In this document: positions 10,550-60,918 of the stretch, piece by piece | Numbering within the stretch: position 1 is the first letter of the stretch | Layout of the letters: the number at the start of each line of letters is the position of its first letter | Origin: Skermania sp. ID1734 | Lineage (GTDB): Bacteria > Actinomycetota > Actinomycetes > Mycobacteriales > Mycobacteriaceae | Assembly: GCF_007489285.1 (NCBI RefSeq) | Contig: NZ_VLIY01000001.1 | Span: 1 to 64,000, forward strand | DNA: 64,000 nt | Direction of reading: 5' to 3' | Program-made: the position numbers and the translations under genes | Notes under the pieces: model-generated | Database searches by the model: none | Told to the model about the DNA's origin: nothing | The model's input: only the letters and a program-made list of their open reading frames with translations

Positions 10550-11224
10550 TCAGACGTTCGCGCCTTTCTGCTTGCCCGTCATCCATAACAAGATGTCCAA
10601 CAGCCGGAGAGTCGAAATATCGTTGAGTTCCGGTGGCGCCGCGTTGCGTACCCAGTGAGCCAATGCGCGATCGTCTGCACGCAGCTGGTCGCGGAGCCAA
10701 TGCCAGCTGCCCTTGTGCGGTTGGCCCGTCACCCCGATAACGACCGAGTCCCACACCGGTAGCAGGTGGGGTCGCTTGCGAGCGAGGAGCTTGCTTGTAG
10801 TTGTCTGTCCCAACCCGGCGCCTTTCCGTGCGGAGCGGCCGCGGAAACGCAGGAGCTTCCAAAGCTGCGCTGCCGCTGAGTCGGGACCGATGAGCGCGTC
10901 GTCGGCGTCGGCAAGTTCGACGCCCATCGGAATCTCGGCAAACAGTTGTGAGCACTCGTCCCGGTCACGACCCAGCAGTCGGATTGCTGCCTGAGCAGGA
11001 ACGTTCACGCTGAGCATGCTTACCGCGACGAAATCGGAGGTCGTGAACTCGTTCGGACACTTGCGGTCATCTTCTAGGCGCTCGAAGACGGACCCGGTAA
11101 AGAGCGGAGCGCCTTGCGAGTCTTTGCTGAAGTAGCTTTCGAAAAGAGAACATGCTTCGTCAGTACGGCGGTTAGCGATCATTGGGGGCATAGCTCGCGA
11201 CTTAGGCACCCGACCAAATGTCAT
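10550..11224 (-). CDS. DUF6308-like protein
   Basis: A 224-aa soluble protein with no signal peptide or membrane segment. The recognisable part is the C-terminal half, GLGQTTTSKLLARKRPHLLPVWDSVV, followed by WHWLRDQL and STLRLLDILLWM. This resembles the actinobacterial DUF6308 family as remembered. The core resembles a helix-hairpin-helix-like DNA-binding segment, but no catalytic motif can be named. It lies alone between the NERD operon and the caspase-like gene, separated by 187 bp and 133 bp with nothing recognisable in those gaps. The function is unknown. Confidence 0.55.
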   Translation of the reverse strand: MTFGRVPKSRAMPPMIANRRTDEACSLFESYFSKDSQGAPLFTGSVFERLEDDRKCPNEFTTSDFVAVSMLSVNVPAQAAIRLLGRDRDECSQLFAEIPMGVELADADDALIGPDSAAAQLWKLLRFRGRSARKGAGLGQTTTSKLLARKRPHLLPVWDSVVIGVTGQPHKGSWHWLRDQLRADDRALAHWVRNAAPPELNDISTLRLLDILLWMTGKQKGANV

Positions 11225-11357: not shown

Positions 11358-11960
11358 TCAGCTAGCCGCCGCAGCGACAGCGATGGAACGCTCGGAAGCC
11401 CAATTGGCGTGCGCCATACGAAAGCCGAGTTTCGTTGTCAACTCGGGATATTCCTTCCGTAACCCCGTGTACGCGGCCTTCATGTTCCTGTAGGACACAA
11501 GTGCGGAAACAAGGAGCAGTTCGAAAGCAGCCGCTTCCACCCATCCCACCATTCGGGTGTAGCCAGCAATCGCTCTGGCGCCGGTGCGGCGACAGAAGCC
11601 GGTGAGGACGTCATCCTCAGCGGCTAGCACTTCGCAAGAGGCAAAGTAGAAGACTTTGCCCGTCCCGCGTCCATCAACAAGGTCTGCGAACTCGTCAAGA
11701 CTCACTCCAACATCGCCAATGTAGAAGGACTCAGCCGAGCCATGAAAACCCAAATAAATTAGGTCAAAGCCCTTCAGCTCCTTCCCGCCTAGCCACCTAT
11801 CCACATAGTGGTCGAGCTCAGCGCGGGTCCCGACGTCCCGGTGCACGAGACGAATCGTGTGGTTGTTTTCCAACAATCGCAGCGCCGTCTCGATACTGAG
11901 ACGACTCTCTAGAGATTGGTCCCAATCTCCCTCCAAACACAGAACGCCGGGACCTTTCAT
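11358..11960 (-). CDS. Small caspase/CHAT-like protein (DUF6642-like)
   Basis: A 200-aa protein. LIYLGFHGSAESFYIG (~residues 68-83) and VFYFASCEVL (~103-112) match the His and Cys catalytic motifs of the caspase-hemoglobinase fold (CHAT) peptidases: H in FHGS and C in ASCEV. The spacing of about 35 residues fits a compact CHAT core. The rest includes GARAIAGYTRMVGWVEAAAFELLL, typical of CHAT domains. It would be a cytoplasmic cysteine peptidase, possibly a defence effector, although an adjacent sensor is not obvious. The ATG at 11960 overlaps the stop (TGATG) of a possible 63-codon reading frame, suggesting translational coupling. Confidence 0.65.
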   Translation of the reverse strand: MKGPGVLCLEGDWDQSLESRLSIETALRLLENNHTIRLVHRDVGTRAELDHYVDRWLGGKELKGFDLIYLGFHGSAESFYIGDVGVSLDEFADLVDGRGTGKVFYFASCEVLAAEDDVLTGFCRRTGARAIAGYTRMVGWVEAAAFELLLVSALVSYRNMKAAYTGLRKEYPELTTKLGFRMAHANWASERSIAVAAAAS

Positions 11961-12151
11961 CAGTATCCCCTTTCCATTTGAAGATGGACTTGGCGTAGAG
12001 CGTTGAGCTCCGACTGCCCCCCAACCAACTTCAACGTCGAGCCACCGTCTAGAACCCCCGTCGTTGAGTACGACCTACCCAAGAGTGCGCCCGGGAAAAC
12101 GACAGGGCTCGGGATGCACGCGAAGTCACACAGTGCCGCAGACGCGATCAT
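11960..12151 (-). CDS. Possible small coupled protein upstream of the caspase-like gene
   Basis: A 63-codon frame whose TGA overlaps the ATG of the caspase-like gene. The peptide has a hydrophobic start and ends with LNALRQVHLQMERGY. Codon third positions are only moderately GC-rich. AAAGGGG inside its end can serve as the ribosome binding site for the downstream gene. It could be a real leader protein, or only the untranslated leader. No family is recognised. Confidence 0.3.
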   Translation of the reverse strand: MIASAALCDFACIPSPVVFPGALLGRSYSTTGVLDGGSTLKLVGGQSELNALRQVHLQMERGY

Positions 12152-12264
12152 TCGTTGTCGCGTGCTCGGAGGAACCTTGCAGGGAAAGTTTGTCGGTCCG
12201 TTCAGCTAACGTCATCGAACAGCTTGGGGATCGACCGTACGCGGACATCGACAGGAGGACGAAG
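11961..12264. promoter_or_regulatory. Divergent intergenic region
   Basis: About 300 bp separate the caspase-like gene from the divergent TY-Chap-like gene. Apart from the possible 63-codon minus-strand frame and an AGGAGG at 12253-12258 placed six bases before the ATG at 12265, no promoter, hairpin or RNA gene was recognised. Promoters for both directions must lie here. Confidence 0.35.
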
Positions 12265-13233
12265 ATGCCGAATCCATTCGAAGATTCCGCGGTCGCGTGG
12301 ATCGAAATGCGGCGCAACCTCGCCGACTACATCGACGGCATGCGCGACGGTGATGTGCTGCTGATCGAATACCGCCGAACCCGGTCGCCAGGCGGCGATT
12401 CCGCCTGTATTCAGTTCTACGCGTGGGGCGATGGGCTGATCCGATGCGAGGTGCCCTCGAACCGGTTCTTGAGTAAGGGGTTTCATACCGACGCAAGCGA
12501 ACTGGTATCCCGCGGCTGGAACGCCCCTAATACAGGCCGGAACGGATCGGCATCGTTCTACCTCGACCGCGGCCGTGGGCATTGCGATGAGCTGGCATCG
12601 AAAGCCGTTGCGTTACTACAGGAGCTGTGGGGAATACCGCACCCGGCACTGCTGGAGAGCGTGGTGCATGGGAGGCCCGAGACTGCGCCTTTTACGATCC
12701 GTCCGGCCGTCTCGTTTCCAGAATTGGAGATGAGTACGGCGGTGCGGCCGATCAGCGCGGCGCATCTGCGGCTGCTCGTCGAGGCAACGCTGGCGTCGGC
12801 TTTCGCCGATGCGGCAGAGCGCGATTCACATGGCGATGTGACAGTCGAACTTGGCGACGAATGGATCGACGTTTCCGTCGTTCTCCACGAACCCGTTGTC
12901 GAAGTCTGGGGCTTTATAGCGCGTCGCGTGCTGGATCGCGATGCGGCGATCGTGGAACTTGCAGAATGGAACCTCGAGAACATAGCCGTGGATGTGGAAG
13001 CCGAGGGCATCTATACGACGCTGCGGGTGGACGCGGATCCGTTTGTGCCGCGGCATCTTGTTAGTGCGGTGCATGAAATGGCGGACGTGCTGGGGACACT
13101 CGATCTCGGGTTGCCGGATCCGATTACGAAGCGACCCGTGCGGAAAGCGCAGAACAGAACCTCGAGACCGTTACGAGCTATGCAGATGCAGCTGTTCGCG
13201 CCGCCAGCGGAGCCGACGCTGTTCGACATTTGA
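12265..13233 (+). CDS. TY-Chap-like protein, shorter paralogue 2
   Basis: A 322-aa protein related to the products at 1576 and 60919. It starts PFEDSAVAWIEMRRNLADYI, has LIRCEVPSNRFLS, SRGWNAPNTG and LLQELWGIPHPALLE (~120-135), then a second domain with VTVELGDEWIDVSVVLHEPVVEVW. It lacks the helical third domain of the other two and ends in a basic tail. The start is fixed by AGGAGG six bases before the ATG; upstream in-frame sequence reads as non-coding. The function is unknown. It may be a chaperone-like or immunity-like protein, given the TY-Chap resemblance. Confidence 0.6.
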   Translation: MPNPFEDSAVAWIEMRRNLADYIDGMRDGDVLLIEYRRTRSPGGDSACIQFYAWGDGLIRCEVPSNRFLSKGFHTDASELVSRGWNAPNTGRNGSASFYLDRGRGHCDELASKAVALLQELWGIPHPALLESVVHGRPETAPFTIRPAVSFPELEMSTAVRPISAAHLRLLVEATLASAFADAAERDSHGDVTVELGDEWIDVSVVLHEPVVEVWGFIARRVLDRDAAIVELAEWNLENIAVDVEAEGIYTTLRVDADPFVPRHLVSAVHEMADVLGTLDLGLPDPITKRPVRKAQNRTSRPLRAMQMQLFAPPAEPTLFDI

Positions 13234-13373: not shown

Positions 13374-13997
13374 TCATCCGAACCGCCGCTTCATCTCACG
13401 GATAGCACCTTCAAATCGATCTCGACCTCCAGGCTGGTTGAGGCCTCGGTTGCCGCAATGCGGAATCTTCTGGCCCCCGAAGTCAAACAAATTCGCGCGC
13501 TGAATCGACGCACGACGCCAGCCGTCGCGCGCTGCATTTCCGAGGGGCAGTACCACGATCAGGTTCGGCAACATCTCGACAACCCGACGTGTCCATCGAG
13601 CACCTTCGGCCCGCTCGGCAGCGGACGAGCCGCCGTTCTTCGTGCCGGCAATCGGGAACGGGCAGACATTCCAATGGACCACATCGGACCAATCGATTTG
13701 GTACTTGGCGTAGGCCTCCCGGCAATTCTTTGCTGTCCAGTCGTTGTTCTCGAGACTCAATAGACCTGAGCCCGTACCCGCCTCAGCCTGCGAACTTGGG
13801 TTGTCTAGCAAGACAAGTGCTCGGGCGTGAATTCCTCCAACATCAGGATCGACGTACGGTACATGTCCGCGCGGCAGTCCGTAGGTATCCGCGATTTCGT
13901 CGGCAAGGTCGTTGAGCGGAGACACATGTGGCTCACGGATCCGCGCCATGCGGGCCGTCAAGACCGTCGGTATTGCGTTCTGACCAAGAATCGGCAT
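13374..13997 (-). CDS. Uracil-DNA-glycosylase-superfamily protein
   Basis: A 207-aa protein of the actinobacterial UDG-like type. HVPYVDPDVGGIHARALVLLDNPSSQAEAG (~45-74) contains the motif-1 region, with Asn-Pro-Ser-Ser where many UDGs have Gly-x-Asp-Pro-Gly. VVHWNVCPFPI (~105-115) is the strand plus Asn/Pro-rich loop, and IVVLPLGNAARDGW (~147-160) is near the C-terminal motif. It would remove uracil or another damaged or modified base from DNA. The ATG at 13997 has AAGGAAGGG upstream and lies 10 bp after the stop of the GmrSD-type gene, so both are probably co-transcribed. Catalytic competence cannot be judged. Confidence 0.72.
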   Translation of the reverse strand: MPILGQNAIPTVLTARMARIREPHVSPLNDLADEIADTYGLPRGHVPYVDPDVGGIHARALVLLDNPSSQAEAGTGSGLLSLENNDWTAKNCREAYAKYQIDWSDVVHWNVCPFPIAGTKNGGSSAAERAEGARWTRRVVEMLPNLIVVLPLGNAARDGWRRASIQRANLFDFGGQKIPHCGNRGLNQPGGRDRFEGAIREMKRRFG

Positions 13998-14007
13998 CGC
14001 CCTTCCT

Positions 14008-16257
14008 TTACTTTCGTCGTTCGATGGAGGGTAGAGGGCCTATCTCGCCGTCGGCCGGTACCGAGTTCTGGAACTCCGTGCGGACATCCCGCAGTCGTCG
14101 ACCATCGGTCACTGCCCAGAAATACCAACCGTTCGTGGCGTTCTTGCGCAAGGCGCAGCCGGCTGCGGACGGAGACGTATAACGCTTGCCGTCGAACTCG
14201 ATGGCACCGTCGGCGGTCAAGGTGGCCTCCTTGCCCTTGAAGTCTCGGTGGGTGGCCACGAGTTTGTCGCCTGCGGCGAGAAGTCCAGCTTCGATCAGGT
14301 GTTTCAACTCAACCCAGTCGCCTGCCTTGGTCTGCGGGTCAACGACCTTTCCGTAATGTCCCTCGGGGACTGGCCAAATCTCGAGGAGCTTATCGATCAG
14401 CTCGGTTGTCCGCTCGTCGATCAGCTCCTCATTCCACGCGCGTTGCTCGGTGCGCTTGATGACCCGCCCAGTGACGGTGATCGTGTTGTGGTCCAACAAC
14501 GCAGCGCGTTTTGCCGACCACGGCCCGTTGGAAACCTTGGCGTTGAGCGACTTCGTCAGCAGCGTCAAGTTACCGAGACGGTGGACGCGCGCCTGCCGGG
14601 CTTCAGCCTCATCGGGAGTCTCCACGGGCCAGGTGTCCTTCCAATTCCGTGGCAGCAGGTGTTCGATCGGGTAGCCGTTGCGCTCGATCTGCGGTTGCCT
14701 TGTCTCGGCGCGATAGTGATCCTCGATCGCTTCCAAGAACATCCGCAGCCGCCCACGCGGGAACCGTGAGTAGGCGGCCTCGGTGGCCAACGTAAGCCGA
14801 ATCTCCTCGTCTCCTGGCCAGTAGGTGCTGGTGACATTCAACCGCGCAAGGTGACGGGTGACTCGTTCCACCAACTCACCGGCAGGTGCGGCGGAGTTAG
14901 CAGCGATGAGGTCGGCAACGATTCGGCCGAGGTCGCTGCCGGACAGGCGGAGAAGCTGGCGGCGTACCACCCAGCTCTCGGCCGCTCGAATGATCCTTGC
15001 ATTGGACTCCTGTGGAAGGTTCCTGCCTGGCTCATGCAGCCAGATGAGCATGGGTTTGAGGACTTCAACCCCGCTTGCCTGCATCCGGTACACGCACATC
15101 TCAGCTGCATCGAGACTTCCGCCGCGCCGGGCAGCGGCCTCGGTCCAAGCTTCGTAGAGTCGAGCCTGCTGTTTGATGATGGGCAGCAGGTCGGTCATCT
15201 TGCGACCGGACTCCAGCACGACGTAGGACTTGAAGCGGTTGAACGTTGCCTGCGGGCTGACTTCCTCTCCCGTACGCGCTATCAGCCACTGGTTCAGGAA
15301 CAGCGAGCTTCGACTGACGTAGTTGCGTCCCACGCTCACTTGATGGTTCCAGAACTTGGTTTCGAACGGCCAGTCCTCACGGTAGGCCTTCGCCGTGTCG
15401 CCGCCCTCTGCCTCGAGGCGTTGAAACACGAAGTTGCGCACCAGGTCAGCAGCGGTGAGCGGTGTGCCGCGTGCGTTGAGGGTCTCGAAGATCTCCTGGG
15501 AATTCTCCGCTGCATCCAACTCGATGGTGATCAGCTGAAGCCCGTCGAGAAGGACGCTAGTGAGGTGGTCCGCCTTGATGGCGTACTCCTGCGACTCCGG
15601 CGCACCCAGCCACTGCTCGACCACCATAGAGAAGTAGGCGTGCGCTGCGGCGATCTGCGAGTCGGAGTGAGTCAAGTCGGCGTGGTCGACCGGCGGCTCG
15701 GCAGACATCACCTCGTCGAACGCATCCCGGTCCTGGTTGAGATGGCGAACCTTCAGTCGGCTCTCACCAACTTCGACATAGATTTCGTCGTTGTGCGTAA
15801 GGCGTTCGAGCCGACCGGACAGTCGCGCATGGCCCGACTCCGTGAGGAGAGCACACGTTGCGTCGGCCAGGATTTGCAAAGTCGTCAGACGCTGCTGGCC
15901 GTCAATCACGTTCCAGGTCGTGAGCCGCTTGCTCTGCGCCTCATGAGACTGAAGAACCACTGCGCCGAGGAAGTGCGTAGCGTTCAAGCGCGGTTCGGCG
16001 ATTCGCAACTCAGTGATGCCGCGAATGTCCTTCCAGAGCGGTTCCCACTGTTCAACTTCCTTCCAAACATAAGGGCGCTGGAACAGTGGGATCACGAAGT
16101 GCTGCGGGAGGTTGAACAGCTGCAAAGGTGTCCGCTTGAAGGTTTCACGCCCCGATCCTTGCGTATCCGACCGACAGAATCGGGCGGTGTCGCCTGCCGG
16201 CCTGATGCGACCGGAGTTTTGCCGGAAGTAGGGGCCAGTTAGTTCCGTTCGAACCAC
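14008..16257 (-). CDS. GmrSD-type DUF262/DUF1524 nuclease with C-terminal RAMA-like domain
   Basis: A single-chain type IV-like restriction enzyme of up to 749 aa. The N-terminal DUF262 (GmrS/ParB-like NTPase) shows FQRPYVWKEVEQW (~58-70) and NVIDGQQRLTTLQ (~112-124). The C-terminal DUF1524 HNH nuclease shows IEHLLPRNW (~528) and HRLGNLTLLTKSLNAKVSNG. The last ~80 residues (LIEAGLL...GDKL through YTSPSAAGCALRKNATNGWYFW) look like a RAMA/DUF4357 modified-base reader. Members such as GmrSD and BrxU cut modified phage DNA. The GTG at 16257 is an uncertain start; no good ribosome binding site is visible and no ATG lies nearby in frame. The gene is upstream of the UDG-like gene and downstream of the 428-aa gene. 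Confidence 0.88.
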   Translation of the reverse strand: MVRTELTGPYFRQNSGRIRPAGDTARFCRSDTQGSGRETFKRTPLQLFNLPQHFVIPLFQRPYVWKEVEQWEPLWKDIRGITELRIAEPRLNATHFLGAVVLQSHEAQSKRLTTWNVIDGQQRLTTLQILADATCALLTESGHARLSGRLERLTHNDEIYVEVGESRLKVRHLNQDRDAFDEVMSAEPPVDHADLTHSDSQIAAAHAYFSMVVEQWLGAPESQEYAIKADHLTSVLLDGLQLITIELDAAENSQEIFETLNARGTPLTAADLVRNFVFQRLEAEGGDTAKAYREDWPFETKFWNHQVSVGRNYVSRSSLFLNQWLIARTGEEVSPQATFNRFKSYVVLESGRKMTDLLPIIKQQARLYEAWTEAAARRGGSLDAAEMCVYRMQASGVEVLKPMLIWLHEPGRNLPQESNARIIRAAESWVVRRQLLRLSGSDLGRIVADLIAANSAAPAGELVERVTRHLARLNVTSTYWPGDEEIRLTLATEAAYSRFPRGRLRMFLEAIEDHYRAETRQPQIERNGYPIEHLLPRNWKDTWPVETPDEAEARQARVHRLGNLTLLTKSLNAKVSNGPWSAKRAALLDHNTITVTGRVIKRTEQRAWNEELIDERTTELIDKLLEIWPVPEGHYGKVVDPQTKAGDWVELKHLIEAGLLAAGDKLVATHRDFKGKEATLTADGAIEFDGKRYTSPSAAGCALRKNATNGWYFWAVTDGRRLRDVRTEFQNSVPADGEIGPLPSIERRK

Positions 16258-16326
16258 CGCACAGAACCGTGCATTTCGAAGTGAGCATTCTGGTTGGAGG
16301 CGGGTCCGCTGACAGGACTAGGCCGA

Positions 16327-17613
16327 TCAGCCCGCAGTCTCGCCGCGAACTGATGGATCGGGATTCTGTTCCGCCGACGGCTCCTCGTGAGAACTGCCGT
16401 CAGTGTCCGAGTTTGGCTCAACAAATCGAGCCAGGCCGGCGATGCCTCGCGCCGCCTGTTGCCGACTTGATTTCGTGATCGCGCGTGTGCGTTCCCGCGC
16501 GACCGCATAAGCGTCCTTGAGGCGCGCATTCTCTGTGTTGCTCCATGACTCAATCTGGAGCGCTCGGGCTTCCACAAAATGGTCGAGGGCCTCGGTCAAG
16601 GGCACACGGTACCTATCGAACGCCCTTCCGGAGAACACGCGGTGTACTTCAGAAATCCGAAGAGCTGCATGTCGGTCAAGTAACCGCCTGAGAGTCTCCG
16701 CGAGCTCTCGGTCAGCCTCAGCGTGCTCCTTCAGCGTTGAGCGCGCGCTGTCGACGGCCTGGTGAAGGTACTGCGGTTCAGTAGATCGGATACGCTCCAG
16801 ACGAAGTCGTTGCCAAATGTAGAGCGACTGCTGTGCAATGAGCAGCAGACTGAGCGTCTCTCTGAGCCTGCCCTTCTTTACAGCCGCCTTGAGTTGCTCC
16901 GCGCGCTCGTCCGCGGTGTCTTGTGGGTTGAGCTGCGTAACGACTTGCATTGCGTGAAAACGAAGTCTCTCCACACCGACTTCAAGATCGGCACCGAGCG
17001 AAGCAATACTCGACCAATCTGTGTCAGTCAGAACGTTGCCGTCCGAAACGTCCTTCAACCTCCGCTGCAGAATTCGTCGGTGACCATAGACGTCGCCGAG
17101 ACGTTGGGCAGACGCGAGTCGTAGGACGTCGTCGACTTTGTCTTCGATTTGGTCAAGCCGGGCCTCGATCAGCTGCGTCTGCTGGGCCAAAGCTGCCTCG
17201 ACCGCCAGCATCGCCACCGCGAATGGGCCGCCTGCCACCGACTGCGGGAGAATTTGCGGATTCGACAGTATTCGCCCACTCGAAGCGCTGCGTGTCGTTG
17301 CGTGGTACGTGACGACCGTACCTGGCGCTGGCCGTGGACTATTTTCACTCCATAGCCCGTCCCCTGCGAGGTATCGCGAAATCGGCCGCGCCCGGCGAAG
17401 CGCGGACGAGCCAATCCCCTGTGCCGCAATTCCGATTCGCTGATCAGGTACAACGAGAGCGGCGCCCGGTTGAATTATCGCCCACTTCTTCTCGAACTCC
17501 TCTATGACAGTCTCGTCGCCGATTAAGAGCGCACCGAATTCATCAGCCACCACCGCTAACTCACGCTCTTGAGTTATGGATTCTGACGGCTCCGAAATGT
17601 CTTGTGAACGCAT
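16327..17613 (-). CDS. Unknown 428-aa helical protein with a hydrophobic segment
   Basis: No family is recognised. The N-terminal third is acidic and mixed (~1-120). A short hydrophobic, alanine-rich segment (GGPFAVAMLAVEAALAQQ, ~127-144) is followed by an amphipathic or coiled-coil stretch (QLIEARLDQIEDKVDDVLRLA) and a long helical C-terminal half, ending in a disordered Ser/Glu-rich tail. The arrangement resembles proteins that associate with membranes, but no pore domain can be named. The ATG at 17613 follows GGGAGGACC; the GTG at 17616 is equally possible. It is 69 bp upstream of the GmrSD-type gene in the same direction, so it may be the first gene of that operon. Confidence 0.6.
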   Translation of the reverse strand: MRSQDISEPSESITQERELAVVADEFGALLIGDETVIEEFEKKWAIIQPGAALVVPDQRIGIAAQGIGSSALRRARPISRYLAGDGLWSENSPRPAPGTVVTYHATTRSASSGRILSNPQILPQSVAGGPFAVAMLAVEAALAQQTQLIEARLDQIEDKVDDVLRLASAQRLGDVYGHRRILQRRLKDVSDGNVLTDTDWSSIASLGADLEVGVERLRFHAMQVVTQLNPQDTADERAEQLKAAVKKGRLRETLSLLLIAQQSLYIWQRLRLERIRSTEPQYLHQAVDSARSTLKEHAEADRELAETLRRLLDRHAALRISEVHRVFSGRAFDRYRVPLTEALDHFVEARALQIESWSNTENARLKDAYAVARERTRAITKSSRQQAARGIAGLARFVEPNSDTDGSSHEEPSAEQNPDPSVRGETAG

Positions 17614-17870
17614 CACGGTCCTCCCTCTGCAGCGCGACGCTCGCCACGATCACCATACGTCGATCTGAAGGACGCGCCTTGAACCACCATCGTTGGCAGC
17701 CGAGCGTCGGCACAGGTTCGACCAGGGCGCGCGTGGCCCCGGGTGGCAGAAAACGCGGCGGGTCGTCCCCGACGATTGTTCACGACACTATCCGTCGGCG
17801 TTGAGCCAATCGGCGTACCTGGAACCGCGCACCCTTCAGCGTCGATCGTTTGCATCGCTACAGTCCACTC

Positions 17871-18203
17871 ATGGCACGTGTCCGTTCTCTCCAGCCCGGA
17901 ACCCAGTCGATTCGGCCCCATGCGAGTGAAGTCGACTGTTTTTACAACGTGATTGATGAAGGTGGTAAGCGCCTCCTCCACCTGTCGACATTCGGATCCG
18001 ACCTCCGCAAATCCGTGCCGAAGAGCAGCCAGTCCATTCAGATCGACGCAGAGCTGGCGCATCAACTAATCGACCTTCTCCGGCAAACATTTCCGGACGT
18101 TACAGGAACGCGGACACCAACCCATGTCGACATCTCTTCTCAACCGGCGCCCATTTATGAATCGATTCGCGCAGAACTGTCAAATGAAAAGTCATCCGAG
18201 TAG
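17871..18203 (+). CDS. Small conserved protein of defence-island type (sometimes mislabelled formyltransferase)
   Basis: A 110-aa protein. The core EVDCFYNVIDEGGKRLLHLSTFGSDLR (~20-46), followed by KSSQSIQIDAELAHQLIDLL, matches a small family that I remember as common beside restriction and defence genes and often carrying a misleading methionyl-tRNA-formyltransferase label. It has no catalytic motif and no membrane segment. The ATG at 17871 was chosen because family members begin near here with MARV-type starts. Its 3' end overlaps the convergent 1638-aa helicase gene by 12 bp. Confidence 0.5.
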   Translation: MARVRSLQPGTQSIRPHASEVDCFYNVIDEGGKRLLHLSTFGSDLRKSVPKSSQSIQIDAELAHQLIDLLRQTFPDVTGTRTPTHVDISSQPAPIYESIRAELSNEKSSE

Positions 18204-21200
18204 CTCTCGCAGCCGTTCCAAAGCGTTCGCCTCGTGGGCAATCACCACGGTGTAGCCCTCGTTCTCCAGTTCAACTTGATCTCCGGCGCCCAGGTACTCG
18301 ACAAGAATCACTCGCTGGTCAGGCCAGACTGCATCGATTGGCCAGTTCGAGCTGCCAACGTCAATCCCAATCTCGGGCTCCGGAAAGCCTTGATTCACAA
18401 CGGCATGCAATAGCTCGCGCACGATAGGCGGTGCTTCAGTCGCATCCACAGCGTGGTCTCTGCCCGCGTCGACGACCTGCAACTCTTGGAAGATGCTCAA
18501 CGCTCCCCCGCGCGAGAGTTGATCGTGGAATCGCGCGTTTCGATACGTACGAAGACAGCCGTAGCACGATGTCTCCAAACCACATTCGCAGCTACGCACA
18601 CGCGTCTCAGCGGCCTGAAGCACGACCTTGAGTTCCTCCGCGATTCGCTTGGCAGCGCCCGCCCCGGCCGGGACGGTGTCGAACAGGACGATGCTGCGTC
18701 TGCCGTTCGCACTCCACGACAATGCTCCGTCAATATCGTCGCGACTGATCTCCAGGCTCTCGGAGGCACCTTCCAGCAAGGCGTACAACACTGAAAGCCA
18801 TTTCGACTCCACAGCTTTGTCGTAGCGGATGTCACTGAAGGTGAACTCGGCCACATCCGTTTGGTACCTGTGCGCAAGTGATACCGCGCGCTGCGGGCCC
18901 TCACACTGGTGCCCGGTCTGCGGGTGGCTGTGCGCACGACGAACGGCACTGCTGGCCCGCTCTGCCCATCCACACCAGTCACAGATGCGGAAGCCACGCC
19001 CATCGCCATCAGAAATCACTACCAGCTTTGCTCGCGTACCTGCTCGGGCGGAAACTTCGATCCCACCTGCCGATTGCCACGTGAACGTGTCAATCTCATC
19101 GCCGACGTCCTCAACGTAGCTGGCCCCGTGCCATTTTCGCTCCGGCAGGGCAATGCCTACATCCTTGGGCTCGCGATCTGCGATGAACCCGAACTCGGGG
19201 ACGACCATCGTCCGAATCGCTCCGAACTGTTCATTGCAAGTGGGGCAAACCGCAAGCGCATCGAGCTCGTGTCCGCATTCGAATCTCGTGCAATTGCTGC
19301 AGACGCGGTACTTGAAGTTCGGCAGCTCGCGCTTCGGGAGCTTGTGCAATCCCGTCGATGTCCACAGCTTGCCACCGGCAACGATCTGGTTACCTGGCGC
19401 ATAGTCGTAAATCGCCTGACTGAGATCTCGCGATAGATCCAGTTTGGCTCCTAACGGCTCTCCACTATGCATGGTTCTGAGTTCCACCACATCGACCGGA
19501 AACCCATACTTAGGCAAGACATTCTGGTTAGCCAAATAGCCGATCAACTGCCGCTCCTCGATGGTGCGTAGCGTTCGCTGCAGGCGGCCGGCGAGGCCAA
19601 ACTTCTTCTCCTTCACCGCTTCGTCCATGAGCCCGGCGAAGATCGAGACATCCTCCTGAACGTCTTGCTCGGCTCTGCGCAGTAAGCGGTCGAGTTCTGC
19701 GACCCATGCGCCAGTCTCGACACCGATCTCACGCTGTACCGGTTGCGGTAGCACCGCTCGTAGTGCGGCGTCGACCACCGGCGGAACGGGAGTCAGGAAT
19801 GACCGCACCGCCGAGGCTGGCGATGCACCGTTCGGTCCCGGACTGAAAAATTCGCCTGCGTTGCTCCATTGCTGTCCGAATGTCTCGTAAGAATGACGAA
19901 AGAAGGCAGCTAGCGCGATCGAGTGTGCGTGTCTGCGGCCAATTCTCTCGTTGTCCACCGGCACCCACGGTATCCGCATGTGGCCGGCGATCATCGATTC
20001 AGGGTTCTGGAACTTTGCCAAATCGTGAGAACTGCGCTTCGCATAGGTCAAAACCAATGCAGCGGAATCCGCACGACGACCAGCGCGGCCGGCTCGCTGC
20101 ACGTAGTTCGCAGTTTTCGGTGGCATATTCCGAAGCACCACGGATTGGAGCGCACCCACATCAACACCTAATTCGAATGTCGTCGAACACGACAAGACAT
20201 TGATCTTGCCGGCGACGAACTCGCGCTGAATCCGTGCGGCTTCTTGCGAATCCCACTGCGCTGTGTGCTCTTTCGCGCTTAGTGGTGCCGGATGGAACGT
20301 TCTATACATGCTTCGGTAGTGATTCGTGTCGGCCGCGAGATCCGGCACCAAGAAGGCCACGAGGGTGCCCGAACATACGATGTTGGGGCAGACACCGCGG
20401 ACGTTGAATGCGCTTATCTGCCGGCAGGTATCGCAGCGGTACCAGTCGGAATTCCGGCCGTTGGTGACGACGAGGCGCTTGTGATCGAGCTGGTATACGT
20501 CGGACGCGAACTTGTCGGATTCCAGGGCGAAGAAACCACATTCGGATAGGAACCGCCAGCAGGTGTCCAGCACCTTCTCTGCCGGCACGGAACCGTCCAC
20601 CGCCCGTAGCACCTTCTCGAGGAACCTCATTCTGTTGTTTGTGGTGCCCGGGCGCCCGCTTGGGCACCAACTAATGATCTTCTTCGCTCTGTCGGATTCG
20701 AGTCGGCGGATTCGGATACGTGCATTCCGCGGTTCGAAACGCTCACCCTTGATATCGACTTCGTCAAGAAGGTTGACTGCACCTTGCAGTCGTACCGACT
20801 TGGCAAGTTCGTCCAGCAGATCCCACACTTCGGCCGAGCTCAATCCAATCTGCTCGAAACCTCGCGGAATCGGCTGAGCCCGTGACCGATCGAGCGAAAC
20901 CCGCATGAGGCCCAACCCTTCCAGCGACTGGCGCTGTTCCATGGTCATCAGCTCACTCATGACCCACTCGTTGGACTCCTTCTCCATTGCGACGATTCCC
21001 GCGTCAACGGGAAAGTGCTGTGCATCCTTTGCCTTCCGGCGCGCTACGAGCGCCAAGTCCTCGACCGTCAGTTCCTCGTCTGTGTACTTCCGGTCCTGCA
21101 GCGCCATCATCAGGTAACGTCGTTCGAGAACTCGCCGGTAGGTTCGATCGAGGTATGGGGCGGCGAATGCGGCCGCCTGCCGCGAGTCCGAAAACATCAG

Positions 21201-23108
21201 CAGTTTCCGCCCTTCACCCACTTCCAGTCCAGCCTCGCCGCCCGCCTTGGGAAGTTGTTGATAGAGCGCAGTGGTAATTACCGCCGGCGCCGCGTTCACA
21301 TCTGTCCGCAACCGACGAATGACTTGGCGCGACCGGGCCCCACATTCGGTGCAGGTGCTCATGACTCGGTTGGGCGACTTGTGCTCTCGTACGCGTCGAA
21401 TCTGACCGCCCGGGCAGTTGGGATTCGGACAAGTCTGCAAATCAGGGCCGCCCAGACATCCGCATCCGGTGCACAGGTGACGAACCAGCGGATCGTCTTT
21501 CGCCTTCTCTTCAGATAGCGTGTCTTCGTCCTCATCCAGGAGGATGTCTGCCTCGGAGTCAGTGAGAACCAACCACTTCACGGACGCATCGTTCTTGATC
21601 GACGGCCGAAAGTACTGGGTTCCCTTGATCGTCTGCACATCCCCGGCGAGATGCACCGCGCCGCAACGAGTGCAGGTTCCGAACTCGAATACCGCCCGCC
21701 CTGTTGTCGGGTCGACCTCATGTCGCGCCAGCATGATCGTCGGTCCGTTGTCGCTGAAACTGACGAACGCTCCTTCTGTGGCACGGACGAACATGTGGTA
21801 CCTCGCCGAGAGCACCGGGTTGCCCGAGCTGTCGTAAACCTTGCTACCTAAGTACACCAGCGCTTCCAGCTTCGCGCCGGCATCGGGATCGTTGGCATAC
21901 AAGATCTTTTCGAGCTGGGTGACCTCCATCGGGCGTCGTTCAGCGCCTGCTGCTGTTTCTTGAAAGAGCAGCTGCCGAAGCTGCACCACGTGTCGCTCGG
22001 CCAACAGGGCATCAGCAGCATCGCCCAGCGGGGAGTATGTCGCCAGATCGTCGAGGCAGGCTCCGGGACTGGCCCAGATAAGTAGCTGGTCATCGGTCAT
22101 CTGCCAGGTCGATTTGGTACATTGAGCGACCCGAGTTGCTCGCACGAGGTCCTGTTGATCTGAGTTGTCGCTGTACTCGAAGGGTACGTCGAACAGGTTG
22201 CGGGCAAAGGTCATTGCATCTTCCGGATCACCATCGAGAGACGCCGACGTTGCAATGCACTGGAGCCGCGAACCGGAGGCAACCCGTTGACGTAGCCGCC
22301 GCAGCAGCATGGAGACCTCTGAGCCTTGTGCCCCGTCGTACACGTGGGCTTCATCCAGGGCAATGAATCTCCACGTTTTCCCGCATGGTCCATCGAAAAG
22401 GTCTATGTCCTTGGGACGCAGCAGGAGATACTCGAGCATCGCGTAATTAGTGAGGAGGATGTGCGGCGGCGTGCTTCGCATCTCCTCGCGGCTGATCAGT
22501 TCGTTTGGCAGACGCGACTGTCCCGGATTCGTCTCGCGGAACTGCGCTTCCGCATCCCGAATCTGCTCCCTTGTCTCACCTGTGTAACGACCGAAGGTGA
22601 TCTCCGGCATGGTTTCAAGTACTTCCCGCAGCCTCCCGAGCTGATCATTTGCCAGGGCGTTCATCGGATACAGCAGCAGCGCCCGCACGCCTGGCCCCAA
22701 TGTGCCGTTGGCATCTTCGGCTACAAGGGAATTCAAAATCGGATATAGGAAGCTCTCGGTCTTCCCCGAACCGGTTCCCGTACTGACCACGAGATTGCGC
22801 CCGGCCAAGATCTTTCTGATCGCCGCTTCCTGGTGCTGATACAGCGGGCGGTCGACATCGGTCCCGATGCGGAGAAACCCTCGATGCAACACACCTTCGT
22901 CCACGAGCTTCCGCACGCTGAGCCCAGGTGCATACGGTGGCGTGAGCTCGAGTAACGGCCCTTTTGTGAGTGCAGTCGTTTGGTCGACAACCGCCTCGAA
23001 AGCCGCCGCCATCGTCGGTTCGCGGGGTGCCACAAGTGTTTTCAGGTAGCGCTTATAGGTTTCTTCGACCTTTTGGCCGGCCGCTAGCGGATCAAGGATG
23101 TTGATCAC
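18192..23108 (-). CDS. DEAD/DEAH-box helicase with DUF1998 (MrfA/DruE-like), 1638 aa
   Basis: A very large SF2 helicase. Landmarks: LYQHQEAAIRKIL (Q-like motif), STGTGSGKTESFLYP (Walker A, ~107), LLLYPMNALANDQ, LLTNYAMLEYLLLRP, ALDEAHVYDGAQG (Walker B, ~250), FELGVDVGALQSVVL and QRAGRAGRRAD (motif VI, ~1003). Several CxxC pairs follow (CTRCGAVH, CTGCGC, CPNPNCPGG, CTECGAR). The C-terminal DUF1998 has VLFDTVPAGAGAA and the cysteine cluster CECGLETSCYGCLRTYRN (~1500). It resembles MrfA, and the DUF1998 helicases of Druantia (DruE) and DISARM. The GTG start at 23108 overlaps the stop of the upstream 1137-aa gene (GTGA), so the two are one operon. Confidence 0.85.
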   Translation of the reverse strand: MINILDPLAAGQKVEETYKRYLKTLVAPREPTMAAAFEAVVDQTTALTKGPLLELTPPYAPGLSVRKLVDEGVLHRGFLRIGTDVDRPLYQHQEAAIRKILAGRNLVVSTGTGSGKTESFLYPILNSLVAEDANGTLGPGVRALLLYPMNALANDQLGRLREVLETMPEITFGRYTGETREQIRDAEAQFRETNPGQSRLPNELISREEMRSTPPHILLTNYAMLEYLLLRPKDIDLFDGPCGKTWRFIALDEAHVYDGAQGSEVSMLLRRLRQRVASGSRLQCIATSASLDGDPEDAMTFARNLFDVPFEYSDNSDQQDLVRATRVAQCTKSTWQMTDDQLLIWASPGACLDDLATYSPLGDAADALLAERHVVQLRQLLFQETAAGAERRPMEVTQLEKILYANDPDAGAKLEALVYLGSKVYDSSGNPVLSARYHMFVRATEGAFVSFSDNGPTIMLARHEVDPTTGRAVFEFGTCTRCGAVHLAGDVQTIKGTQYFRPSIKNDASVKWLVLTDSEADILLDEDEDTLSEEKAKDDPLVRHLCTGCGCLGGPDLQTCPNPNCPGGQIRRVREHKSPNRVMSTCTECGARSRQVIRRLRTDVNAAPAVITTALYQQLPKAGGEAGLEVGEGRKLLMFSDSRQAAAFAAPYLDRTYRRVLERRYLMMALQDRKYTDEELTVEDLALVARRKAKDAQHFPVDAGIVAMEKESNEWVMSELMTMEQRQSLEGLGLMRVSLDRSRAQPIPRGFEQIGLSSAEVWDLLDELAKSVRLQGAVNLLDEVDIKGERFEPRNARIRIRRLESDRAKKIISWCPSGRPGTTNNRMRFLEKVLRAVDGSVPAEKVLDTCWRFLSECGFFALESDKFASDVYQLDHKRLVVTNGRNSDWYRCDTCRQISAFNVRGVCPNIVCSGTLVAFLVPDLAADTNHYRSMYRTFHPAPLSAKEHTAQWDSQEAARIQREFVAGKINVLSCSTTFELGVDVGALQSVVLRNMPPKTANYVQRAGRAGRRADSAALVLTYAKRSSHDLAKFQNPESMIAGHMRIPWVPVDNERIGRRHAHSIALAAFFRHSYETFGQQWSNAGEFFSPGPNGASPASAVRSFLTPVPPVVDAALRAVLPQPVQREIGVETGAWVAELDRLLRRAEQDVQEDVSIFAGLMDEAVKEKKFGLAGRLQRTLRTIEERQLIGYLANQNVLPKYGFPVDVVELRTMHSGEPLGAKLDLSRDLSQAIYDYAPGNQIVAGGKLWTSTGLHKLPKRELPNFKYRVCSNCTRFECGHELDALAVCPTCNEQFGAIRTMVVPEFGFIADREPKDVGIALPERKWHGASYVEDVGDEIDTFTWQSAGGIEVSARAGTRAKLVVISDGDGRGFRICDWCGWAERASSAVRRAHSHPQTGHQCEGPQRAVSLAHRYQTDVAEFTFSDIRYDKAVESKWLSVLYALLEGASESLEISRDDIDGALSWSANGRRSIVLFDTVPAGAGAAKRIAEELKVVLQAAETRVRSCECGLETSCYGCLRTYRNARFHDQLSRGGALSIFQELQVVDAGRDHAVDATEAPPIVRELLHAVVNQGFPEPEIGIDVGSSNWPIDAVWPDQRVILVEYLGAGDQVELENEGYTVVIAHEANALERLRELLG

Positions 23109-26100
23109 GAGATTTCTCCGATCAGGTCGCCGTATACGGCATGGGTCACGAGCGCTTCGGCAATCAACAAGTCAGTGAAGACGAGCTTCGGCGCCAACTC
23201 CGCCATCCGGGCCCAGGCCTCCATGACGTCGGTGGTCAGTCCCGCGTGCCGCACCATTCCATGCGCGTCGAGTCTCGCTAGCACCGCCAACGTGAGCGAC
23301 TGCAGCGACATCAGCATCCACGGGTTTGTGACAGTATCGACTCCCGTGAGGGCCTCGTTTCTCGCAGCAATGACATTGTGTAAGTCCCGACCGGCCCGCT
23401 TGACCTTTTCGAGAGATCTCAGCGTAGCTGCGGTGAACTCCGCGGACCACCCACGTCGCATCCACTCGCTGCGACTGTGGAAGGCGTCGACGTTTCCGCT
23501 GACCCGTGTGTCGAGGTCAAGGTAACCCGCGGGAACAAGGCGAAAACTCTCAAAGATCCTCTCTACCTGCGCAGGTGGGAGCGCGTGTAGCCTTTCGACA
23601 TTCTTATCGAAGAGCCCGTAGTTCAGGTCCCGCGCTTTTCCTACTCGCAGAACGTCTATGAGCAAGTCACCCCCTTTATCGGCGAGATAAGTGATCGACT
23701 CGCGGCGCTCCTCCGCGACCTGTGACCTGCGCTTGTAAAGCGATGGGAGGTCGGCGATTTCCACCATGCATCCAACCCAGGGATTGGTGTGCAGTTCGTT
23801 GTCGGTGAAATCGGCGGCGAAGCTTTGGTTGACAAGACCGCATCGGATCAGCAGTGTCGCCATCTGGTTCATGGGAATGGTGCTGTCGCCCAACAACTCC
23901 AAGGCCGACCTTGGATTGGCTTGCAGGCTCCCGGTGAGGGCACCGCGCAGTTGTTGCGTGTCGACGTCTTCGGAATCGAACGGCAGACGCGCCAGCGCGG
24001 CCCATACCTCCGGAACCGTGACGTCCGCGGCGGGCGCTGCCCCTTCTCCGGCGAGAAATCGCGACAGGGATTGCCTAGCATAGTTGGGATCAGGGACCCA
24101 ACCGGGTTGATCAACTCGCCACGCCGATGAGTCAGGCCAACCCGGAGGGGTGATCGTGGTCCACGGGTCGTCGACAAATACCTCTATGAGTAGTGGTCCG
24201 GCATTTATGAGGTCATCAGGCAATGCAACCTTCGACCCGGTGATGGCAATGGTCGCTGGAGTCCGCCACGGCGCAGTAGTCGGCCAGACCCATGCTGCGA
24301 TGTCCTGTCCGGGCGCAAGTCCGTCGAAGACGAGTTGTTCGGCTTCAATTGCAATGGATCGACACAGACGGGCCTTCTGCACGTGCACAAGGGCAACGGT
24401 GGTGAGTTTGCCGTGGGTATCGGTGAGGCGCGCGACGATTCGGCCTTCGCCCTTCCTTTGTGCAGCATCGGCAAACTTGCGTGTCGTGGACTGAAAGGTG
24501 TTCTCAGCGAGCACTTCTGGCTCGATCACCTGGAGTGTCCGGCCGCCCGCCTCGACCAACGCAAAATCGACGCGCTGCGCCGCCGGGACCCGCGCGGCGA
24601 TGACCAGATGGTCGTCGAGCTCGAATGGGCTCAGGACCTGCGGCTTGGTCCGCCACCTGGCCGGCTTGCCTGGCGCGTCCACTCGCATCTCGATGTGTGG
24701 AGGCGTTACGACGAGTTTGAAGCGCCTACTACCGGAGCTGACCTCGACCGGCAACTCCCTGTCGGTCGCGGCGAACGTCAGCAACGAGCGATCGACCTGC
24801 AGCAGACCGTCGGACCGGATTTGCGCTGTGACCGGCAATAACCCTGCTGCCACCGGGAACCGGAAATCGCGGTCGAAAGCGACCGATAGACCTTCAGCAA
24901 GATAGATCTGCTGGCGTAGATCACCGCCAAGTGGACCTGCAATGACGATCTCGTAGAGGCCGATCAACCCCCGACTTGCCCCGTCGAACGGGTCGATCAC
25001 CGTCGGGTCGTTGGTAGCGGTCTGAATCCGGTCGATGAACCATTCGCGATCTCCGCTGCGTCGAACGCGTACCCGCCAATCCATTGGATGGCCTGCCGGG
25101 TGCGCGGGTAACGACACCGTTGGCCGCTTCGCGTACACCTTCATTCCGCGCACCGTCCGTAGCCCGACTACCGGCTCGCTCGGTTCGAACGTTGGGCTGG
25201 CGGTGGTTCGGACACCGCGTGCTGCACCAGTCCGATTCTCTCCACGCGCAAACTGGATCGATTGCTGAGAACTCAAGTCGATGTGGGCGGCCAACCATCC
25301 GCGCCAGCCCACCGGAGTTGACGGTTCGACGAGAGGAGCGATTGGCTGCTGGTTGATGGGGTCCAACAATTCCCCGTCGTAGGGATAGACCGCCAGAATG
25401 GTGCCCTGCGGCAGAGCCGCGGTACGAGGAATCTGTCGTCCGTCTTCCACGAACAGCAGCAAAGGATCGTTCTTGTCCACCACCGGCAGAGTGACGACCG
25501 TGCCGCTTGCACGATGCTCGACCAACACCTCGCGAACCGGCGCCGCCACCGGCACGACCGTGGGTGGATGCGCGTCGCCGTCGACTCCCCAGCCTCGTTC
25601 TGCCCAGACTTCGCGGGTGTCGCCATCGAACGTGACGCGCCACGGCTCGCCCGCACCCGTCGCCGGGTACGGCAGTTCGACCTGAATCTGGTCATCGGTA
25701 ATCGAATACGCCAAGCGCGGTCTGCGGGCGCGTCGCATGCGGTGTCCGCCGGCGCGATCACTGCCAATCGGATTGTCACGCAGTTCATCGATCAGCGCGC
25801 CGAGCAGAAGTGTGGGCAGTCCGGTCGTCGATGTTTCCAGCTCGATCTCGTCCCACGAACCAGGATTTTCGACGACGTGATCGATAAACTCGACAATCCG
25901 GTCGAGCACGTCCAAGGCGAACTCGCCACCGAAATGGATGAAATTTCGGACGGGAACGTCGACGGCGTTCAAGCGATATTCCTTGCCGGGCTCGGTCAGC
26001 CATTCGACGATTGCTGCCGCCGAGTGCTCGCGACCCTCGACGAAGTGCTGCTCGATCACCTTGACCAGGTCGGGCAGGCAATGGCCGGGGATACCGGCGT

Positions 26101-26518
26101 GCATCGCCATCAGCCGGACGTAGTCCTTGTCAAGATTCGGAAACTGGGCCAGCTTGAATCGCCGCAGTAGCGGGGTCAGCTGCATCCGCAATGCGTTCTC
26201 GAACTGCTGGTCCCGCGGTATTCCAAGCTCGTCCCAGAAATCATCCCAGTACCGGCCCTGGTCGTACGCAAGACCTGCGTGACCTACCAAGATGGCAAGC
26301 GTCAACGCCGGGTATTTCTTGATTACCTCCGCAGGGGTGTAGCCGATGCGCAGCAGCTGGTCAGCCCGGCGGCCATAAAAGCCCTGCGCACGCCTGATCT
26401 CGTCCTCACTCAGATTGGCTTCCACGACCAACGACGAGCGCTCCAGCAGTTGCGCAACGCGGAACTCCTCGTCGCCGAGCCAGGTCGCCAAGAACGATCC
26501 ACCACTAACGCCCGACAT
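23105..26518 (-). CDS. Large defence-associated protein of unknown function, 1137 aa
   Basis: No enzyme motif was found. The helical N-terminal third includes YTPAEVIKKYPALTLAILVGHAGL, YDQGRYWDDFWDELGI (~84-99) and HAGIPGHCLPDLVKVIEQHF (~135-155). The middle third (~300-760) is rich in beta strands, with repeated R-V/R-L-V strand patterns suggesting Ig-like or jelly-roll modules. The last third is helical. I recall the Y-W-D and GIP-x-x-C-L-P signatures in large proteins next to DUF1998 helicases, but cannot name a family with certainty; DruH is a possibility. It is translationally coupled to the helicase at 18192. The ATG at 26518 follows GAGAGGGGA. A 125-bp divergent region separates it from the SNF2 gene. 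Confidence 0.6.
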   Translation of the reverse strand: MSGVSGGSFLATWLGDEEFRVAQLLERSSLVVEANLSEDEIRRAQGFYGRRADQLLRIGYTPAEVIKKYPALTLAILVGHAGLAYDQGRYWDDFWDELGIPRDQQFENALRMQLTPLLRRFKLAQFPNLDKDYVRLMAMHAGIPGHCLPDLVKVIEQHFVEGREHSAAAIVEWLTEPGKEYRLNAVDVPVRNFIHFGGEFALDVLDRIVEFIDHVVENPGSWDEIELETSTTGLPTLLLGALIDELRDNPIGSDRAGGHRMRRARRPRLAYSITDDQIQVELPYPATGAGEPWRVTFDGDTREVWAERGWGVDGDAHPPTVVPVAAPVREVLVEHRASGTVVTLPVVDKNDPLLLFVEDGRQIPRTAALPQGTILAVYPYDGELLDPINQQPIAPLVEPSTPVGWRGWLAAHIDLSSQQSIQFARGENRTGAARGVRTTASPTFEPSEPVVGLRTVRGMKVYAKRPTVSLPAHPAGHPMDWRVRVRRSGDREWFIDRIQTATNDPTVIDPFDGASRGLIGLYEIVIAGPLGGDLRQQIYLAEGLSVAFDRDFRFPVAAGLLPVTAQIRSDGLLQVDRSLLTFAATDRELPVEVSSGSRRFKLVVTPPHIEMRVDAPGKPARWRTKPQVLSPFELDDHLVIAARVPAAQRVDFALVEAGGRTLQVIEPEVLAENTFQSTTRKFADAAQRKGEGRIVARLTDTHGKLTTVALVHVQKARLCRSIAIEAEQLVFDGLAPGQDIAAWVWPTTAPWRTPATIAITGSKVALPDDLINAGPLLIEVFVDDPWTTITPPGWPDSSAWRVDQPGWVPDPNYARQSLSRFLAGEGAAPAADVTVPEVWAALARLPFDSEDVDTQQLRGALTGSLQANPRSALELLGDSTIPMNQMATLLIRCGLVNQSFAADFTDNELHTNPWVGCMVEIADLPSLYKRRSQVAEERRESITYLADKGGDLLIDVLRVGKARDLNYGLFDKNVERLHALPPAQVERIFESFRLVPAGYLDLDTRVSGNVDAFHSRSEWMRRGWSAEFTAATLRSLEKVKRAGRDLHNVIAARNEALTGVDTVTNPWMLMSLQSLTLAVLARLDAHGMVRHAGLTTDVMEAWARMAELAPKLVFTDLLIAEALVTHAVYGDLIGEIS

Positions 26519-26643
26519 TGAAGTCCCCTCTCTGTGCGATCTGAATCGAGCCGGTCAGACTCGCACACCCCACCGACAAGAACGCGCTGCGCGTTTTGTC
26601 GGATAACCTTCCCTCACCATTACCACTGCGAAAGGGTGGGGGG
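26519..26643. promoter_or_regulatory. Divergent promoter region between the two halves of the DISARM-like locus
   Basis: Only 125 bp separate the minus-strand 1137-aa gene from the plus-strand SNF2 gene, so both promoters should overlap here. A GAGAGGGGA ribosome binding site serves the minus gene and an AAAGGGTGGGGGG stretch serves the ATG at 26644. No clear operator palindrome was seen. Confidence 0.4.
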
Positions 26644-29538: not shown

Positions 29539-29539
29539 C

Positions 29540-45844: not shown

Positions 45845-46097
45845 CCTGCCGGACGGGTCAATTCCCGGCGATGGATAGCACCGCAGGTTACCCACGGCCG
45901 TAGCATCGGGCGCTCTCCCGGGATCGCAATTGCCGATACGCTCTCATTCCACGGCTGAACCCTCGCGAAACTAGAAGCGCGAGTGCCCTCCTGACAGCAG
46001 TTAGTGCCGTCTTGTTGGACGGTCACCGCATTTTGGGGCCTACAATCTACCCATGTTGTTGATTACTCTGCATCGTTAATTCGCAAATTCACCGATT
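45845..46097. other. Intergenic region without recognised gene
   Basis: This 253-bp convergent gap between the RelE-UvrD gene and the GTPase-like gene is AT-richer toward its right end (TTAATTCGCAAATTCACC region). No gene, hairpin with T-tract or repeat was recognised. Confidence 0.4.
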
Positions 46098-60511: not shown

Positions 60512-60793
60512 TTACTTTTTGTCGAGGGCTCGGATCAGAAGGTCCTTGACTTCGGCGACGCTCTCCTCGATCGAGCGGACGCGGGCGTTCGTCTCGTCGA
60601 GCTTTGACCCGAGACTGTCGACACGGCCGTCGAGCCGATTCGACATGTTGTCCGTGCGCTGGTCCATGATGTCGAACCGCTCGCGCGTTTGCTGACTCAG
60701 CACATTGATCGATGCCAGTACGGCTTTGTAGTCAGCTCGCTCCGCTTCCAGAGCGGCGACTCGAGCCTCGAGTTCAGCAAGCGTTGCGGCCAT
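60512..60793 (-). CDS. Small coiled-coil protein
   Basis: A 93-aa protein, almost wholly heptad-patterned helix: ATLAELEARVAALEAERADYKAVL, then QTRERFDIMDQRTDNMSNRLDGRVDSLGSKLDETNARVRSIEESVAEVKDLLIRAL. It has no membrane segment and no catalytic motif. Such short coiled-coil proteins are frequent in mycobacteria; the function is unknown. The Met at 60793 is preferred to one ten codons upstream because the repeat starts there. It converges with the WS/DGAT gene. Confidence 0.65.
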   Translation of the reverse strand: MAATLAELEARVAALEAERADYKAVLASINVLSQQTRERFDIMDQRTDNMSNRLDGRVDSLGSKLDETNARVRSIEESVAEVKDLLIRALDKK

Positions 60794-60918
60794 GCAAGGC
60801 AGCCTACCGATCAGTCCCGACAAAATCGCGGCTGCGAAACCTGTCGGAGGTCTCCTCTAACGTCTCGCAGTGGGGGCGATCTCCCGGTGTGGCGGACTGG
60901 AGCAGACAGGGGTGGACG

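Follow-up and report, generated by a model that had tools for sequence, protein, structure and literature searches.

A UDG-fold putative DNA glycosylase in a Skermania defence island and hints of its ties to HEL and RAMA proteins

Three closely spaced genes of the actinobacterium Skermania sp. ID1734 encode HEL, a protein of an unnamed family, a GmrSD-type nuclease that carries a RAMA domain, and a putative DNA glycosylase with a UDG fold. The natural fusions and gene neighbourhoods found among relatives hint that the repeated tie of the glycosylase is to HEL and RAMA, and not to the GmrSD nuclease that adjoins it here. We tentatively read the three genes as one cassette for modular base-excision defence, in which HEL would link the glycosylase to a reader or a nuclease, and we give this reading somewhat less than an even chance. 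We are more doubtful of a second proposal, that HEL may be the hub or adaptor of an undescribed modular defence family joining a glycosylase to a RAMA reader or a nuclease, and that a clade of UDG proteins with a D-N-P-S motif might thereby carry out reader-guided base excision of phage DNA.

The sequence analysed is a stretch of 64,000 nt (hereafter the window), comprising positions 1-64,000 of contig NZ_VLIY01000001.1 in assembly GCF_007489285.1. The host genome measures 5.12 Mb in 56 contigs and was the sole genome returned for its genus. The features that concern us are the following.

13374..13997, minus strand: UDG-fold putative DNA glycosylase, 207 aa (ORF, AF2 model, fold match, residue conservation)
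13998..14007, minus strand: 10-bp gap from the GmrSD stop codon (14010-14008) to the UDG ATG (sequence reading)
14007-14001, minus strand: Shine-Dalgarno-like AGGAAGG inside the 10-bp gap (sequence reading)
14008..16257, minus strand: type IV restriction nuclease GmrSD, 749 aa, with RAMA at the C-terminus (ORF, Pfam)
14068..14331, minus strand: RAMA domain, residues 643-730, putative modified-base reader (Pfam PF18755)
16327..17616, minus strand: HEL, 429 aa, unnamed family (ORF; fusions and neighbours in relatives)

The three genes in the ORF list, all on the minus strand, match those placed by an earlier sequence-only reading of this DNA, and the 10-bp spacing that it reported between the GmrSD and UDG genes is borne out by the sequence. 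The HEL ORF starts at 17616; position 17613, given earlier, is an ATG one codon in. The true start of the GmrSD gene is uncertain because the stretch in common with orthologues starts some 37 codons in, at about 16146. Promoter-like and terminator-like sites between 13200 and 18300 were no more numerous than in shuffled sequences.

Other defence-type genes in the window, recognized with Pfam, PADLOC and NCBIfam, encode two helicases, one DruE-like and one DrmD-like, a DUF4011/MTES_1575 protein and a methylase. The DruE-like helicase (PADLOC DruE1, E 3.1e-185) lies next to a directly upstream gene for a 1137-aa protein without a family match, and the two (18192-26518, minus strand) are possibly an incomplete or variant Druantia-like pair. 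The DrmD-like SNF2 helicase scored 323.6 bits, under the NCBIfam cut-off of 610; the next gene encodes a methylase of 1473 aa that Pfam matches to Eco57I and MmeI, and the two genes together span 26596-33961 on the plus strand. Three related genes for TY-Chap (YbjN-type chaperone) proteins are present, at 1576-2784, 12064-13233 and 60712-62058, the third assigned by BLAST only. A DUF6642 protein (11358-11960, minus strand; Pfam) has a counterpart found by BLAST at another locus (L099:4761-5384), where its gene and a distant UDG ORF overlap; its G-F-H-G and F-A-x-C stretches we take, by eye, to suggest a caspase-like dyad. DUF6308 proteins are encoded near HEL and GmrSD both in the window (10550-11224, minus strand) and in genome G185 (L092:5792-6460). 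A gene with weak AAA/STAND matches (46472-48130, minus strand) falls in a low-G+C stretch (52.6% over 46001-48000, vs about 60-62% on either side) that is perhaps a recent arrival.

The nuclease is the most readily classified of the three proteins. Pfam matched GmrSD_N to residues 46-278 (E 2.7e-37), GmrSD_C to residues 480-622 (E 7.4e-26) and RAMA (PF18755) to residues 643-730 (E 1.1e-18; 67.5 bits against a cut-off of 35.2), with DUF4357 overlapping RAMA in the same search. As the two GmrSD matches likewise exceed their curated cut-offs, the original description of a GmrSD-type nuclease with a RAMA-like reader holds for all three domains. Such a protein is predicted, probably, to cut chemically modified DNA. 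GmrSD-RAMA proteins at least 55% identical to it were found in 10 of 401 genomes of the family, the window included.

At the limits used, the 207-aa protein found no family match in Pfam, PADLOC or NCBIfam, and no PDB sequence matched it meaningfully; its profile (A2) retrieved no PDB chain at E ≤ 1. Its UDG-superfamily identity, proposed earlier, is instead borne out by the fold of an AF2 model built from 13 sequences (pLDDT 81.1, pTM 0.83). VIA-align matched this model to the family-4 UDG 4zbx with a Z of 14.6 (166 of 207 residues, 3.0 Å), to UdgX with a Z of 14.5 and to SMUG1 with Z of 11.3-12.3, and the best Foldseek E was 2.8e-4. The window protein, as modelled, thus has a UDG fold. Seven of its 10 best plasmid relatives are annotated as uracil-DNA glycosylase, and the other three have no listed gene.

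Residue conservation was examined in 46 distinct sequences, the window's included, after fragments of fewer than 140 residues and duplicates had been dropped. Residues W109, N110, P113, G76, N84 and D86 are invariant in all 46. The motifs of the window protein are D65-N66-P67-S68 (motif I), H108-W109-N110 and H180; motif I and H180 are kept in every one of the 34 sequences with at least 50% identity (window included), and the 12 distant sequences mostly have [KQR][DA]PG as motif I, with the His in seven. Polar residues stand in motifs I and II at the positions of the superfamily's catalytic residues, and we regard D-N-P-S as this clade's variant. N66, S68 and N110 presumably correspond to known UDG residues, a mapping made by motif and not by residue-level structural alignment. 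The motif I sequences of repair UDGs differ from D-N-P-S. Family-4 UDGs and UdgX have four Cys ligands that hold a 4Fe-4S cluster; the window protein has three Cys in total (92, 112 and 181) and therefore cannot hold a family-4 Fe-S cluster. If N110 reads the base, as the motif correspondence would have it, the substrate is more likely to be a uracil-type than a cytosine-type base. Removal of a non-standard base, uracil or a 5-substituted uracil, is the most likely putative activity.

HEL matched nothing in Pfam or PADLOC, and its sole NCBIfam match was to FliD at 15.9 bits, far under the cut-off of 580. The sequence-only reading had described an unknown helical protein with a hydrophobic segment. 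The lack of a known family stands, and the mostly helical character is a judgement by eye from the sequence; the segment makes no convincing membrane span, its best 19-residue Kyte-Doolittle mean being 1.62 vs a mean maximum of 1.43 in 200 shuffles. HEL as a membrane protein, for which this segment had made a candidate, is not supported. Relatives of HEL occur in 63 of the 401 family genomes. In four genomes of one genus HEL lies between a hisS-like gene and an MFS gene (Pfam was run for one of them), and in a second genus 18 of 18 genomes match the later part of HEL; HEL is therefore not a defence-only gene. Elsewhere it adjoins HNH-type genes, in L083 (Pfam HNH_2), in L090 and L077 (both by BLAST only) and on a plasmid (L116, annotated). 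It lies near GmrSD in three genomes (G185, G218 and G286), in G033 GmrSD-RAMA has a remnant of HEL upstream, and in G072 GmrSD has a distant HEL beside it.

The tie between UDG and HEL is plainest where the two are parts of one protein. On plasmid pR8L1 of Rhodococcus sp. 008 (L019), UDG, HEL and RAMA are encoded in one open frame; its RAMA scores 43.2 bits against the cut-off of 35.2, its UDG is 65% identical to that of the window, and in the gene table of the plasmid only HEL-RAMA is listed. The UDG part differs from that of locus L005 at 26, 17 and 118 first, second and third codon positions over 198 codons, and this excess of third-position changes is as expected for a conserved protein. 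Plasmid pLP1 carries a frameshifted copy of UDG-HEL-RAMA, 97.9% identical to that of pR8L1. Next to Tn7-like genes it has a further copy of HEL-RAMA, in which only the end of UDG is left; the pR8L1 and pLP1 copies were counted as one event. In genome G008 (L082) a single frame of 989 codons encodes a distant UDG together with HEL, and the UDGs of the two UDG-HEL fusions come from different subgroups. When genomes were searched by genus (18, 28 and 59 genomes), the only match to span both UDG and HEL was G008 itself. The HEL of genome G050 (L066) likewise has RAMA at its end (39.5 bits). Two other genomes, G136 and G287, have long open frames around UDG, which we did not count as fusions. The natural fusions support a link, of the kind proposed earlier, between glycosylase, RAMA reader and the third protein, HEL.

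Separate genes give a similar picture. UDG and HEL are divergent and 360 bp apart in G292, with an HNH gene after HEL, and in G044 HEL is directly followed by a 29-residue remnant of the UDG N-terminus (19.9 bits, E 1.2e-4). Among pairs that share a genome, the window's own left aside, two of 27 UDG/HEL pairs lie within 1 kb (0.010 expected) and four within 10 kb (0.095 expected), and two of eight HEL/GmrSD pairs are within 5 kb (0.014 expected). The expected numbers assume uniform gene placement and, for most genomes, a size of 5.5 Mb, and they ignore the clustering of defence genes, so that significance is overstated within defence islands; fusions in frame are independent of this null. The association is repeated and not general, since 27 of 29 HEL loci (L053-L081, flanks of about 1.5 kb) are without UDG, the other two having one intact UDG and one remnant. 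None of eight wider HEL regions (L090-L097) has UDG. An order-wide search yielded 39 HEL-bearing genomes among 387, and in the 20 loci kept (flanks again about 1.5 kb) UDG was found at G008 only and GmrSD at the window only, whose UDG lies outside these flanks; 18 loci had neither.

The commonest neighbour of UDG is another protein, C1, of 430 aa (L004:414-1706 and similar), which has one strongly hydrophobic segment (mean 2.2). In Gordonia and Williamsia loci its gene stands directly upstream of that for UDG, and in two Rhodococcus loci the two genes are divergent. It matched nothing in Pfam or NCBIfam, and its AF2 model is poor (pLDDT 54). HEL and C1 are alike in layout by eye, and we considered them as one family; profile-profile comparison gave this a probability of 0.2-1.9%, against 99% for a control of close and distant HEL, and kinship is therefore not claimed.

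The main rival to the cassette is that the three genes are independent neighbours, GmrSD-RAMA being an ordinary type IV enzyme and UDG a stand-alone defence or repair gene, juxtaposed by island turnover and at most co-transcribed. This is a serious contender, if itself a doubtful one, and it draws its strength from the gene-order comparison that had been proposed for the coupling of the glycosylase to GmrSD. The GmrSD-UDG order is not kept in relatives. None of 14 loci with a close UDG (Rhodococcus, Gordonia, Williamsia, Mycobacterium and Aldersonia) has an adjacent GmrSD; in one (L010, the same sequence as G274) a GmrSD gene is about 4 kb away. GmrSD is likewise absent from the flanks of all 29 best other UDG loci in the 401 family genomes (L024-L052; about 1.5 kb, shorter in L026 and L035), a set that overlaps the 14, so that the counts are not summed. 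No UDG lies within about 1.5 kb of the nine other close GmrSD-RAMA genes, and of the 10 UDG-GmrSD pairs that share a genome, the window's own left aside, only that in the genome of L010 falls within 10 kb (0.037 expected). Adjacency of GmrSD and UDG was thus seen in the window only, among the loci examined.

The same 29 flanks hold C1 upstream and co-directional in 11 cases (one frameshifted), divergent C1 in three, a C1 remnant in one and divergent HEL in one; 13 have none of HEL, C1 and GmrSD. On plasmids UDG is flanked by GIY-YIG (L017, L018) or by an SRAP peptidase (L020, a Dietzia plasmid), and IS elements are also among the neighbours of close relatives. The sequence-only reading had named a glycosylase found with many unrelated neighbours, and not with GmrSD homologues, as the observation that would tell against it; this is largely what we see. 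These varied neighbours, the many HEL loci without UDG and an island crowded with unrelated defence genes all favour independence. Against it stand the 10-bp gap between GmrSD and UDG, the separate ties of HEL to UDG by fusion and to GmrSD, and the UDG-HEL-RAMA and HEL-RAMA fusions.

It is unlikely that UDG is an accessory repair enzyme for uracil or 5-hydroxymethyluracil, serving actinobacterial plasmids and islands and having no antiphage role. The UDG fold, the invariant N110, which by motif would read the uracil face, and the annotation of relatives as uracil-DNA glycosylase are consistent with repair, as is the SRAP gene adjoining UDG in the Dietzia plasmid, SRAP being a family that handles abasic sites. 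A patchy spread (at E ≤ 1e-10, 83 of the 401 family genomes, of which 33 reach at least 50% identity, window included), the presence of relatives on plasmids and of the window gene in a defence island, and a motif I unlike those of repair UDGs argue the other way. Phage records gave no match to UDG at E ≤ 0.01, and 40 UDG and 12 HEL pattern matches in viral contigs held no relative by tblastn. Improbable, finally, is an obligate system in which modified phage DNA is recognised by GmrSD-RAMA, has the base excised by UDG and is cut by GmrSD at the abasic site or close to it: the operon-like spacing and the RAMA domain fused to UDG-HEL speak for it, but the lack of UDG beside the other close GmrSD-RAMA genes and of GmrSD at the 29 UDG loci leaves an obligate pair not supported.

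In the modular cassette that we prefer, UDG would hydrolyse a non-standard, uracil-type base from incoming DNA to leave abasic sites, and HEL could serve as a soluble scaffold or regulator gathering modules that excise bases, read them or cut DNA. RAMA would supply recognition of modified DNA, carried by GmrSD in the window and by the fused protein elsewhere. GmrSD, as a modification-dependent nuclease, could also cut DNA and would be one of several interchangeable partners of HEL, HNH nucleases being others. The earlier wording, that the proteins recognise, remove and cut, may still describe the outcome.

The obvious pairing of GmrSD with UDG is corrected by this analysis, in that the recurring link is to HEL and RAMA. 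The joining of glycosylase and reader through HEL, if true, would be a testable form of guided base excision; it would also point to actinobacterial phages carrying uracil-type modified DNA. Among the matches listed in literature searches on antiphage glycosylases, RAMA and GmrSD or type IV restriction, we found no description of a GmrSD-UDG pair or of a UDG-HEL-RAMA unit, for which HEL is nameless as a query.

Compared with known systems, the window UDG shares its fold with UdgX and family-4 UDG (Z 14.5-14.6) and differs from them in motif I and in having three Cys and no four-Cys Fe-S cluster. The nuclease has GmrSD_N and GmrSD_C in common with known GmrSD type IV restriction enzymes, and DUF4357 extensions have already been reported in GmrSD homologues, in a paper whose main text does not contain the word glycosylase (PMC4619093). 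Brig1, Brig2 and Brig3 are recently described antiphage DNA glycosylases (PMC13160076, preprint). Brig1, which acts on alpha-glucosyl-hmC, belongs to the UDG superfamily and has as its best DALI match the family-4 UDG of S. tokodaii (Z 9.2), whose Asn82 is replaced by Glu147 (PMC11078745). By fold and published description, the window UDG resembles Brig1 in its superfamily, in having this S. tokodaii UDG as its top match (Z 14.6, by another program) and in its setting in actinobacterial defence islands, and differs in having N110, matched by motif only, where Brig1 has Glu147; the parts of that account available to us mention neither HEL nor RAMA (PMC11078745). Brig3, likewise a glycosylase of the UDG superfamily, shares an operon with a partner, BapA, which is described as having two beta-barrels and glucosyl hydrolase activity and which broadens the action of Brig3; HEL, helical by eye, is set apart from BapA by description only, and no GmrSD-UDG pair is described in the portions of the preprint consulted (PMC13160076). 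UDG-type antiphage glycosylases and GmrSD proteins with DUF4357 extensions are thus already known, and in our reading the window cassette would be a variant of Brig-type glycosylase defence and type IV restriction.
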